This document shows, piece after piece, positions 38,865 through 45,941 of a DNA stretch of 64,000 bases. The DNA lies in the NCBI GenBank assembly GCA_029550965.1, contig JAKPGJ010000022.1:1-64000 (forward strand), read 5' to 3'. A program made the position numbers and the translations under genes. Numbering within the stretch: the stretch's first letter is position 1; every line of letters begins with the position of its first letter. Origin of the DNA: Bacillota bacterium (GTDB taxonomy: Bacteria; Bacillota; Clostridia; Oscillospirales; CAG-382). A model generated the notes under the pieces. It made no database searches and was not told where the DNA came from. It worked only from the letters and a program-made list of their open reading frames with translations.

Positions 38865-39854
38865 ATGGAAAAAATCGCATTGATCATGGGCGGCGGCTCA
38901 AGAAACATGGTTTTTAACGAGAAGTCGCTCAAAAGGCTTGAGAAAATCGGCGAGGTCGTTCTCAATAACGGCGGAACCGACAAGGAGAACATAAAAAAGG
39001 TTATCAAAGGCGCGACCATCGCGGTGACGTCGTGGGGAAACACGGCGATTGATCAAGAAATTCTGGCGGAATGCCCGGATTTAAAAATCGTCGCGCACGC
39101 GGCGGGCAGCGTAAAGCCGGTGGTTTCGGACGATTTGTGGGCGAAAGGCGTCCGCGTCGTCAGCAGCGCGTGCGTATTGAGCATGGGCGTTTCGGAAACC
39201 GCGGTCGGCTTTACCATCTCGGCGTCGAAGAACTTTTACGCGCTCAACGACGCGATGCACGCGGGTGAATGGCCGGCCGAAAGAGAGAACATCAAAGACC
39301 TGTACGACCTGACCGTCGGCGTCGTCGGCGGCGGCTGGGCGGGACGCCATTATATCGAGCTGATGCGCGCGTACAGCGTGAACATCCTGCTGTACGACCC
39401 GTACGTTTCCGAGGAGCAGGCTGCCGAACTGGGCGCAAAGAAGGTTTCGTTTGAGGAGCTTCTTAAAGAGAGCGATATCGTTTCCATCCACGCGCCGTCC
39501 ATACCCGAAACATACCATATGTTCAATAAAGACACATTGAAATTAATGAAAAAGGACGCGGTTTTAATCAACACCGCAAGAGGTTCTTTGATTGACGAGC
39601 AGGCGCTGTACGAGTTTATGAAAGCCGGCAATCTCAAGTATGCCTGCTTAGACGTATTTGACCCGGAACCGCCGAAAGCCGACAATCCTTTGCGCACGCT
39701 CAAGAACTGCATTATGACGCCGCACCTTGCGGGGCAGGCGAACAACGGGCTGAAAAAAATCGGACAGCATGTCTGCGAGGAGATTGAAAGACTGCTTGCC
39801 GGGCAGCAGCCGATTTGCGAAGTCACAAAGGAAATGCTCGCGACCATGGCGTAG
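38865..39854 (+). CDS. D-isomer-specific 2-hydroxyacid dehydrogenase
   Basis: LTVGVVGGGWAGRHYIELMRAYSVNILLYDPYV...LINTARGSLIDEQALYEFM...DVFDPEPP. Confidence 0.93.
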   Translation: MEKIALIMGGGSRNMVFNEKSLKRLEKIGEVVLNNGGTDKENIKKVIKGATIAVTSWGNTAIDQEILAECPDLKIVAHAAGSVKPVVSDDLWAKGVRVVSSACVLSMGVSETAVGFTISASKNFYALNDAMHAGEWPAERENIKDLYDLTVGVVGGGWAGRHYIELMRAYSVNILLYDPYVSEEQAAELGAKKVSFEELLKESDIVSIHAPSIPETYHMFNKDTLKLMKKDAVLINTARGSLIDEQALYEFMKAGNLKYACLDVFDPEPPKADNPLRTLKNCIMTPHLAGQANNGLKKIGQHVCEEIERLLAGQQPICEVTKEMLATMA

Positions 39855-39878: not shown

Positions 39879-40874
39879 ATGAGAAAACTATTGTGTTTGA
39901 TTTTAACGCTGTGCGCGGTACTTACGTTTGCAGCCTGCACAAGAGGTTCAGCGATTGAAGTAAGTGAAGTGTCTGAAACGGATTCTTCGGAAGCAGATTC
40001 TGTAATAGAGACCTCCCGGGAAGAAAGCACGGTCAAGAACAATATTACTCCGCTTTTATGGAAGGTAACAAACAATGACAGCGGCGCGGTGGTTTGGCTT
40101 TTTGGATCCAGCTTGGCAGACGAAAAAGCCTTTCCGCTGCCCGACGCGGTCATGTCTGCTTATGAATCATCTGAGAACCTTATAGTGCTGCATAACTTTG
40201 CGGAAGAGAATATTGACGTAGAAAAAGTACTAAAGGAATTTGAATATCCAGACGGCTCTTCGATAAAAAAGCATATTCCCGAAGACATCTATCAAAAAGC
40301 CAACAGAATCGTATATAATGCTTACGGGACGTCAGGCTCTGTCGCTTTGGATGGCTTCAAGCCGATTATGTGGGTAACTGAAATCGAGAAAGTATATACG
40401 CTCGATTCTACTTTCACCGACAGCATAGATTCCTATTTTATTACACAGGCGCAAAAAGACAAAAAGCACTATTTTGCCCTTGAAGATTATAATTCACTTA
40501 TAAAGCAGTTTACAAATCTTTCGGATGCGCTGCAGGTATTCCTTTTAAAGCGGATAATAAACATTAATGCTGCGGAGTATATAAAACAGCTATCGAATCT
40601 TTACGACGCCTGGTCGGTCGGCGCCGCCGGATTCATCGAACAATACTTTTTTGATACGAACGGATATACGCAGGAAGAACAGAGGCTGCTCTCAGAATAC
40701 AATAAAATATTCTATGAGGATAAAATCATAAGAATTGACGAGGCTTTACAGGAATACCTCTCTATCAAAACAAGCGTGTTCGCCTGCATCAGTATTGAGC
40801 ATTTCGTCGGCGAAAAAGGCGTTGTCAAACTGCTGACCGACGCCGGATACCAAGTAGAACGGGTATATACGTAA
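39879..40874 (+). CDS. TraB/GumN-like lipoprotein, catalytic motifs degenerate (paralog 1)
   Basis: Lipobox TFAAC; LLWKVTNNDSGAVVWLFGSSLADEKAFPLP...; GSSL instead of GSIH and ISIEHFVG instead of VGLGHMIG. Confidence 0.75.
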   Translation: MRKLLCLILTLCAVLTFAACTRGSAIEVSEVSETDSSEADSVIETSREESTVKNNITPLLWKVTNNDSGAVVWLFGSSLADEKAFPLPDAVMSAYESSENLIVLHNFAEENIDVEKVLKEFEYPDGSSIKKHIPEDIYQKANRIVYNAYGTSGSVALDGFKPIMWVTEIEKVYTLDSTFTDSIDSYFITQAQKDKKHYFALEDYNSLIKQFTNLSDALQVFLLKRIININAAEYIKQLSNLYDAWSVGAAGFIEQYFFDTNGYTQEEQRLLSEYNKIFYEDKIIRIDEALQEYLSIKTSVFACISIEHFVGEKGVVKLLTDAGYQVERVYT

Positions 40875-40922
40875 AGAATGACCCTTTGCCGCAATCAAAA
40901 TATGATGGAGAAGGAATGTTTT

Positions 40923-41945
40923 ATGAAAAAACTATTATGCCTGTTACTGGCGCTGATAACCCTGTTTTCGCTGGTTTCCTGCCGCGTGGCGAGAGGGATG
41001 CCGCTTGCGGATTTCAGCGACGTTTCTTCGACAGAGGTCAGCTTCGCGGATGAAAGTACGGTTGACGCAATCGACAGCGGTATTACGCCGCTGTTTTGGA
41101 AGGTAAAAAGCAAAGACGGAAACAACGTGCTTTGGCTGTTCGGTTCGATTCACATTGCCGACGAAAGCCTATATCCGCTGCCGGACGTGATCCTTACGGC
41201 ATATGCGTCCTGCGACGCGCTCGCCGTCGAGTGCAACATCGTCGACGACAGTATAGGCGCGTCCGAATTAATGAAAAAAGCAGCGTATTCCGACGGCACG
41301 ACGATACAGGACCATATTTCCCAAGAGGTTTATCTGGACGCGAAGAAGATTCTGACGGACGCTTATGGCAGCGTCGTGGTTTCACAGCTTGACCAATACA
41401 AACCGTATTTATGGTATTCGTTTATAGATGAGATTTACAGGTCAAAGAGCCGCCTGAAAAGCGAATACGGCATCGATATGTATTTCATACAAAAATGCAG
41501 GACCGATAAAAAAGAGCTTATCGAGATTGAATCGGTAGAGTTTCAAACCAACATGCTGTTCGGTTTTCCGGACGACGTTCAGGAGCTAATGCTTGCCGAA
41601 ATCGTGAGAGCCGGGCAGGAAATTTACATAAAGGGAATTGAGGAACTCTACGAAGCGTGGATGACCGGCGACATCGAAAAACTCGAGAAGATACTGTTGG
41701 ATGACGACTTGTCGGGCTATACCGAGAAGGAAATCCAAGCGATTGAAAAATACAACAAAGCGGTTATTACAGACCGAAATCTCAACATGGCGGAAAAAGC
41801 GAAAGAATACCTATCGCAGGGAAAGAACGTATTCTACGTCGTCGGTTTGGGGCATATGATCGGCGAAAAGGGCATTGTTCAGCTGCTCAAGGACGCCGGT
41901 TACGAGGTCGAGCTGATTCCGATCAACGCAAAGAACAGTCTGTAA
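40923..41945 (+). CDS. TraB/GumN family lipoprotein (paralog 2, canonical motifs)
   Basis: Lipobox SLVSC; FWKVKSKDGNNVLWLFGSIHIADESLYPLP...AVECN...VFYVVGLGHMIGEKGIVQLLKDAGYEVE. Confidence 0.85.
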   Translation: MKKLLCLLLALITLFSLVSCRVARGMPLADFSDVSSTEVSFADESTVDAIDSGITPLFWKVKSKDGNNVLWLFGSIHIADESLYPLPDVILTAYASCDALAVECNIVDDSIGASELMKKAAYSDGTTIQDHISQEVYLDAKKILTDAYGSVVVSQLDQYKPYLWYSFIDEIYRSKSRLKSEYGIDMYFIQKCRTDKKELIEIESVEFQTNMLFGFPDDVQELMLAEIVRAGQEIYIKGIEELYEAWMTGDIEKLEKILLDDDLSGYTEKEIQAIEKYNKAVITDRNLNMAEKAKEYLSQGKNVFYVVGLGHMIGEKGIVQLLKDAGYEVELIPINAKNSL

Positions 41946-41958
41946 CAAGAAACAACGC

Positions 41959-41987
41959 CGGGCGGGTAAAACCCGCCCGTTTTTTTA
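41959..41987 (+). terminator. Strong intrinsic terminator
   Basis: CGGGCGGGT aaa ACCCGCCCG TTTTTTT. Confidence 0.9.
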
Positions 41988-42094: not shown

Positions 42095-42123
42095 TTGACA
42101 AAATCTATAATACCCTGTATAAT
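42095..42123 (+). promoter_or_regulatory. Perfect-consensus SigA promoter for leader/metY transcript
   Basis: TTGACA-17 nt-TATAAT, ~200 nt upstream of metY-like ATG. Confidence 0.8.
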
Positions 42124-42181
42124 CCAAAGCATATAATATTAATATGTTTACTATACTATTTGACAGAGGAGGCACATTTCC

Positions 42182-42274
42182 ATGTTTTCCAGATACTCAA
42201 TCATCTTTATCATGCTGAGGAGAAACTTCAGAAACGGTCGAATGTGCCGCGTAAGTACCCTCCTAACCGCTTAA
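42182..42274 (+). CDS. Candidate 30-aa regulatory leader peptide
   Basis: SD AGAGGAGG then ATG; MFSRYSIIFIMLRRNFRNGRMCRVSTLLTA*; sits between a consensus promoter and the metY-like gene. Confidence 0.65.
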   Translation: MFSRYSIIFIMLRRNFRNGRMCRVSTLLTA

Positions 42275-42332
42275 CACGATTCACGCTTATTAAAAACAAA
42301 ACTAAAAATTAATTACGAAAGAGGTACTTACG
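42250..42332 (+). promoter_or_regulatory. Anti-Shine-Dalgarno helix linking leader ORF to metY-like start
   Basis: CGTAAGTACC (42250-42259) perfectly complementary to GGTACTTACG (42323-42332), plus TC/GA (42261-42262 with 42321-42322) across a 1-nt bulge. Confidence 0.65.
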
Positions 42333-44852: not shown

Positions 44853-45680
44853 TTATTTGTCAGCCAAACGGCTTCTCCGGTTTATCGCGTAAACCGTTCC
44901 GGCAGAAATCAATGCCAGTACGGCAAAGACCGCGAGTCCGGCGTCGCCGGTCTGCGGGTTGGAACCGGTCTGACTGGAAGAAGCCTGACTGCTTGCCTGC
45001 TGGCTGGATGACGCGGCGCTGCTGGCGGAAGAAGCGCTGCTGGAAGTCTGGCTGGAAGAAGCCTGACTGCTGGAAGCGGAAGAAGTCTGGCTCGAACTAT
45101 TGTTGTTTGCAGACGGATCCGCGAACACCTGAATCTCCGTGCTCCAGATGAAGTTGTCGCCGGTTGCCGTTACGCGGACGTATCTTGCGGATACGGGAGC
45201 CGACAGCGTCAGTATGTATTCGTCGCCGTACCAGCCTTCGTTCGACTTATTGACAGCGTCTTTTTTCTCAACTTTGCCGAGATAGGTATAATTAACGCCG
45301 TCAACAGATACCTCGTACTCGACGCTTTTCGGCTCTTTGATGCCCCACGGTCCGTAATACATATCCATGTTGAACTTCTTAATGCCGTTGACGACGGAAC
45401 CCAAATCGATTACATAAACCGCTTGCGGCGTATATTGCGCGCCGGGAAGACCTGCCAGTCCGCCGTCGGTTCCGCCGACGACGCCGTCGGTCAGTCTCTG
45501 GAATGATCCGTTTTCGCCGTCCGACAGACTATCGTTATCATAGGGCTGTCCCTGCTCTCCAATATCGACAGTGTACTTTTTGCCCAGCGCGACGTTGACC
45601 AAATCGTCTGCGCTTGCAATTATAGAAAGAAAAGGAACGGTGAGCAATAATACTAAAATTACAGCGAGTGCTTTTTTCAT
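44853..45680 (-). CDS. Secreted discoidin-like protein with NPQTG-type cell-wall sorting tail
   Basis: Signal peptide; NVALGKKYTVDIGEQGQPYDN; Ser/Gln/Ala linker; SNPQTGDAGLAVFAVLALISAGTVYAINRRSRLADK. Confidence 0.75.
   Translation of the reverse strand: MKKALAVILVLLLTVPFLSIIASADDLVNVALGKKYTVDIGEQGQPYDNDSLSDGENGSFQRLTDGVVGGTDGGLAGLPGAQYTPQAVYVIDLGSVVNGIKKFNMDMYYGPWGIKEPKSVEYEVSVDGVNYTYLGKVEKKDAVNKSNEGWYGDEYILTLSAPVSARYVRVTATGDNFIWSTEIQVFADPSANNNSSSQTSSASSSQASSSQTSSSASSASSAASSSQQASSQASSSQTGSNPQTGDAGLAVFAVLALISAGTVYAINRRSRLADK
44974..45071. repeat. 20-bp direct repeats within Ser/Gln-rich linker
   Basis: ctggaagaagcctgactgct at 44974-44993 and 45052-45071. Confidence 0.85.
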
Positions 45681-45941
45681 GATACACACCTTTCTTTTTG
45701 TATTTAGTAATAAAGCGCTGTGTTATTATACCGCAGCGGGAAAAAGAAAATTGGCGAAAAAAACCATTTGTCTTTATAAAACCACATTATTGTTAAAAAT
45801 AGATGAACAATCAATTATTATATATATCAAATCTTTAAATTTCTGTCAAGACTTGTTGTTATGTAAAATTTAAATGATCGTTATGTATTCTTAAAAATTC
45901 TTATCGGCGGACCAAAGATCGACGGACGGTCAAGATTCATA

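Follow-up and report, generated by a model that had tools for sequence, protein, structure and literature searches.

A tandem pair of TraB/GumN lipoprotein genes in a Clostridia genome, one predicted to be non-catalytic, and apparent recurrent loss of catalytic residues in the TraB family

TraB/GumN lipoproteins occur commonly in bacteria but have hardly been characterised, and for those of the Clostridia we know of no substrate, unlike for the TIKI superfamily. This superfamily includes Tiki, PrgY/TraB, the erythromycin esterases, RRSP, ChaN and PMT. PrgY/TraB is thought to act outside the cell, where it would degrade a peptide pheromone (PMC7117660). RRSP, an endopeptidase of the TIKI superfamily, requires its 2His/2Glu residues, and PMT, whose catalytically silent C1/C2 region has the TIKI fold without this motif, is inactive on KRas (PMC6254334). 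The fold can also form a structural part, as in the complex IV of the ciliate Tetrahymena, which contains a TraB-family protein as an accessory subunit (PMC10060162). Inactive copies that stand beside active kin are described in a review of inactive metallopeptidase homologs, from which the Tiki/TraB family is absent (PMC11266112), and among dead-paralog activators such as the trypanosome prozyme, which activates its enzyme AdoMetDC (PMC5201418).

Here we describe two adjoining members of the secreted lipoprotein branch of PF01963 in Clostridia, P1 and P2, which lie in the window (the whole stretch of 64,000 nucleotides that was analysed) and are the only TraB-family matches in a genome of 2.07 Mb that is 97% complete. 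The features of the locus are:

38874..39854, + strand, D-2-hydroxyacid dehydrogenase gene, directly upstream of P1 with a gap of 24 bp (Pfam 2-Hacid_dh_C, 190 bits)
39879..40874, + strand, P1, TraB/PrgY/GumN lipoprotein of 331 aa, predicted non-catalytic (PF01963 match, motif columns, AlphaFold)
39879..39938, + strand, P1 signal peptide with a lipobox-like end, LTFAAC (sequence read by eye)
40104..40121, + strand, P1 degenerate motif 1, GSS-LAD versus GSIHIAD, with one residue deleted and the first catalytic His (His1) lost (alignments)
40182..40196, + strand, P1 degenerate Glu motif, IVLHN versus AVECN (alignments)
40791..40811, + strand, P1 degenerate motif 2, SIEHFVG versus GLGHMIG, with the second catalytic His (His2) kept and Gly lost (alignments)
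40923..41945, + strand, P2, TraB/PrgY/GumN lipoprotein of 340 aa with all family motifs (PF01963 match, motif columns, AlphaFold)
41959..41986, + strand, intrinsic-terminator-like hairpin (9-bp stem, 8 GC pairs) and a run of seven T, 3' of P2

P1 and P2 are separated by 48 bp. The open reading frame of P2 reaches upstream to 40878; the start is most likely at 40923 (MKKLLCLLLA), which is preceded by a good ribosome-binding site, GGAGAAGGA, rather than at the 40878 ATG. The ribosome-binding site of P1 is weak, and its lipobox has Phe at -3, which is less usual. As read from the sequence, a terminator-like hairpin is present after P2 only and none lies between the two co-directional genes; the upstream dehydrogenase gene is probably in the same operon. 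Two other features lie downstream in the window. Positions 42095-42332 lie upstream of an O-acetylhomoserine sulfhydrylase-like gene (42333). They contain a promoter of consensus sequence, TTGACA-17-TATAAT, and encode a leader peptide of 30 aa, MFSRYSIIFIMLRRNFRNGRMCRVSTLLTA, whose ribosome-binding site is strong. The arms of an exact inverted repeat of 10 bp, CGTAAGTACC / GGTACTTACG, pair the end of the leader with the ribosome-binding site of the sulfhydrylase-like gene. The sister species G001 carries a counterpart of the leader, MYSVIFIMLRKNFRNGRMCRCK, and a repeat that nearly matches, in which an end pair is compensatory. This arrangement resembles a translation attenuator that senses Cys or Met; it has no match in Rfam. 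Further on, the protein encoded at 44853-45689 (- strand) is secreted and carries an F5/8 type C domain (PF00754) and a Ser-rich stalk; its C-terminal NPQTG and membrane anchor look like a sortase signal.

The initial annotation had read P1 and P2 as tandem TraB/GumN lipoproteins with shared motifs, and this is borne out: PF01963 covers the full length of both (109.5 bits for P1, positions 1-263, and 210 bits for P2, at a cut-off of 26.8), all of the motifs it quoted are found, and the proteins, which are 34-36% identical, have in common WKV, LFGS, PLPD and GEKG...DAGYxVE. P2 is complete for the H/E/E/D/R/GxxH set (GSIH, AVECN, GLGHMIG) and contains the catalytic TraB/TIKI motifs, GxxH, Glu, second GxxH and Arg, with the same His/Glu/His arrangement as the superfamily. 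It is presumed to be active, as a TraB/TIKI-type hydrolase or peptidase at the cell surface. P1, which resembles P2 and the rest of the branch in its full-length domain, lipoprotein signal and fold, differs in that this motif set is incomplete. The inactivated motifs that had been proposed for it, GSSL, IVLHN and SIEHFVG, hold up in the alignments, with two refinements: His2 (in SIEH) and Glu2, the acidic residue of the ALED/IEIES motif, are still present, and the Arg of the DRN motif, earlier unlisted, is lost as well (DKI). The residues absent from P1 are His1 (GSS-L), Glu1 (IVLHN), the Arg and, in the second GxxH (SIEH), the Gly. The AlphaFold models of P1 (pLDDT 95.0, pTM 0.89, although this model leans on an alignment of active relatives) and P2 (pLDDT 95.5, pTM 0.91) have the same fold, with the same order of elements and similar confidence. 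As in other pseudoenzymes, the parent fold is retained (AlphaFold) and catalytic residues are gone (motif alignment). The pseudo-enzyme reading of P1 is well supported by sequence, with the export signal and the reading frame also kept, and P1 falls within known pseudoenzyme biology.

The extent of this loss can be judged against TraB domains drawn from the loci of family, order and class surveys and then aligned. In a first set of 64 full-length relatives, the GxxH, Glu, second GxxH and conserved Arg are present; they are absent in P1 and in one other protein. Conservation among these 64 relatives reaches 90% or more in sixteen columns, of which P1 keeps 10 (62%). The six that it loses, His20, Glu46, Arg228, Met232, Val250 and Gly251 (P2-domain numbering), are all in or adjoining the active-site motifs, whereas conserved columns outside the motifs are kept in every case (7/7). 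This confinement to motif columns has a one-sided Fisher p of about 0.01, calculated by hand on columns grouped after the fact; in leave-one-out tests, retention of the 16 columns by the relatives was never below 81%. A larger set comprises 145 distinct TraB domains, which come mostly from Clostridia, with a few rows from other phyla; His1, Glu1 and His2 are all kept in 138. Some of the loci were fetched with a pattern containing the first motif, so that those rows are biased toward intact motifs. This bias does not apply to the order and class surveys, which relied on the Pfam profile. Two loci (L089 in G067 and L090 in G061) encode tandem proteins of ~780 aa in which an uncharacterised N-terminal part of ~500 aa is fused to a motif-complete TraB domain. 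These were considered as active/inactive pairs and rejected, since both members are motif-complete.

The seven domains without the full His/Glu set are P1 and members of three unrelated lineages. The TraB protein of G157 has lost His1, Glu2, Arg and His2 and retains Glu1, that of G623 is without His1, Glu1 and His2, and that of genus g194 is without His1, His2 and Arg. Two of these genes are:

L088:6094-7194, G157 lipoprotein, TraB fold match without catalytic His, the sole TraB match in its genome
L195:6846-7835, G623 lipoprotein, TraB fold match without catalytic His, the sole TraB match in its genome

In g194 (L168, L177, L178 and L179; also L192 and L193), the protein lacks both catalytic His, has an ordinary signal peptide, and is kept in four species at 65-90% identity with a dN/dS of 0.20-0.23. 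At the two loci that were read, its gene lies between what we take, from N-terminal sequences rather than a family search, to be GH3-like and GH94-like genes. No active TraB sibling was detected in G157, G623 or g194. Since the g194 protein is retained at this dN/dS without an active sibling, a TraB fold lacking the catalytic His can be maintained as a stand-alone protein. Loss of catalytic residues is thus recurrent in the TraB family, having occurred several times. At the position of His1, Ser is found in three of the four lineages that lack this His (GSLS, GAIS and GS-S; loci L168, L174, L177-L179 and P1), and a change from His to Ser needs at least two base changes.

Comparison with known structures is less informative. 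Searches of the PDB by phmmer gave chance matches only, as did a profile search. Foldseek gave no significant match for P2, those to BcR135 and RRSP being weak and not significant, and structure therefore adds little on mechanism. The best PDB fold matches of P1 are chains of the ciliate complex IV, at an E-value of 0.008 and a TM of 0.44; these are weak, the complex is eukaryotic and mitochondrial, and the matched chain is presumably the TraB subunit. Complex IV offers, by analogy, a weak though fitting precedent for a structural or binding use of P1. Absence of the catalytic motif is shared with the C1/C2 region of PMT (PMC6254334); however, that region belongs to an unrelated branch, and P1 is instead a bacterial lipoprotein adjoining a motif-complete paralog.

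Two sister species inform the history of the locus. G002 has a single intact TraB gene at the same locus, after the same dehydrogenase gene; its product is 43% identical to P2 and 32% identical to P1. G001, in which the dehydrogenase is closer to that of the window (82% identical, versus 74% in G002), has conserved flanks around an interval that encodes a flavin reductase, a YdeI-like protein, an HTH protein and an ammonium transporter; neither this locus nor the rest of its genome yielded a TraB gene. A signal-peptide-like scrap there, MKKLLCVMLTVVLIFGFV, was not counted as the remnant of a lost gene, given an E-value of 0.06 and nothing TraB-like after it. The G001 ammonium transporter (L047:5605-7419) carries a P-II domain fused at its C-terminus. 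The larger of two trees groups P1, P2 and the G002 copy in a single clade (support 97/94), and together with the position of the G002 copy at the same locus this places the duplication within the lineage of the genus. By these comparisons, the TraB gene is ancestral at the locus and appears to have been duplicated in the lineage of the window or just before, and lost in G001. By the trees, P1 may have split either before or after the G002 copy. The branch of P1 is long, at 1.6 changes per site compared with 0.46 for P2. Surveys of the genus, family, order and class, and back-translated patterns searched against GTDB genomes, found no ortholog of P1. A chimeric assembly is unlikely, since synteny of the flanks extends to both sister species.

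P1 also differs from its surroundings in composition, with a GC3 of 0.47 where genes of the window average 0.65 (sd 0.08). This value resembles that of the G002 copy (0.46), and the smaller tree pairs the two (86/74), as would be expected if P1 had come from a relative of the genus with a higher A+T content rather than by duplication in this lineage. However, the larger tree does not contain that grouping, and pairing of P1 with P2 or with the G002 copy is in neither case rejected (AU p 0.38-0.40). In addition, third-position identity of P1, although measured over few sites, is higher with P2 (0.42) than with the G002 copy (0.17), and P1 sits in tandem at the ancestral locus; acquisition is thus quite unlikely. 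The low GC3 and long branch are also compatible with relaxed constraint, and a decaying duplicate, heading to loss and without present function, would account for them as well as for the weak ribosome-binding site and the unusual lipobox. Indeed, gene turnover at this locus is fast, the TraB gene being absent in one sister species. Against decay, when the P2 frame was mutated neutrally to 65% identity in a simulation, it acquired 6 stops on average and none of 200 trials was free of stops. The 331-codon frame of P1 is intact at 35% identity to P2, and since neutral copies always held stops at up to 65%, this frame has probably been under selection for most of the divergence. The full-length domain match, the confident fold and the retention of all conserved residues outside the active site likewise speak against decay, which we consider unlikely. 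Because the open frame and the long branch with low GC3 both fit, the evolution of P1 is best described as accelerated and partly relaxed after duplication.

If P1 is functional, the question becomes what it does. We infer that it is catalytically inactive, because both of the proposed His-Glu catalytic pairs include a Glu that it lacks, the correspondence with RRSP residues being assigned by motif order. Given that His2 and Glu2 are kept, P1 may have residual or altered activity. A different chemistry, kept or gained, in which Ser at the place of His1 acts with these two residues, would draw on the odd recurrence of Ser in P1, G623 and g194; however, the match in P1 hinges on where the alignment places the one-residue deletion, G623 and g194 do not have His2 and so share no new triad with P1, and Glu1 is gone from P1. 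We regard such chemistry as very improbable. The initial annotation had instead paired P1 with its active sibling as a dedicated regulator, chaperone or decoy. In such a reading P1 would be expressed with P2 from one operon and would either bind P2 or compete for its substrate. The adjacency and common direction of the genes, the terminator after P2 only, the 34% identity with the same predicted fold, and the prozyme precedent (PMC5201418) would fit this. The proposal does not find support among relatives. The pair is not maintained in either sister species, an outcome that the initial annotation had itself named as refuting, with the same locus in G002 having one intact enzyme gene without P1 and that in G001 having none; among 394 order-level and 391 class-level genomes sampled, no other active and inactive TraB pair was found; and the three other lineages without catalytic His each have a single TraB gene, with no active sibling found. 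A role of this kind is thus rather unlikely; one limited to this one species is possible, with adjacency as its evidence.

The reading that we favor, as the more probable one, is that P1, a fast-evolving TraB-fold lipoprotein without catalytic activity, goes back to a tandem duplication within the genus, most likely acts by binding, and needs no conserved partnership with P2. The ancestor of P2 would have been duplicated in tandem within the genus, and the copy that became P1 would then have evolved fast, losing catalytic residues while keeping its fold and export signal. P2 would process a surface or extracellular peptide. P1, for which a surface location and a binding role are predicted, would bind the same or a related ligand, or might act as a protein-interaction module that binds another protein.

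More useful than the pairing of P1 and P2 is the wider pattern, in which TraB proteins have repeatedly lost catalytic residues. Such loss with the fold kept suggests that the TraB domain is also useful without catalysis, probably for binding, and cautions against labelling every PF01963 match a protease. P1 with P2, and genus g194 versus its active relatives, are the pairs in which to search for a shared ligand. Tentatively, and at somewhat less than even likelihood, TraB-fold proteins without the catalytic His may form a recurrent class of functional surface binders in Clostridia, with four independent origins, one of them under purifying selection in several species and flanked by two glycoside-processing genes. 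If so, P1 would represent a recent instance, its parent enzyme still lying next to it, and the step from enzyme to binder would be open to study.
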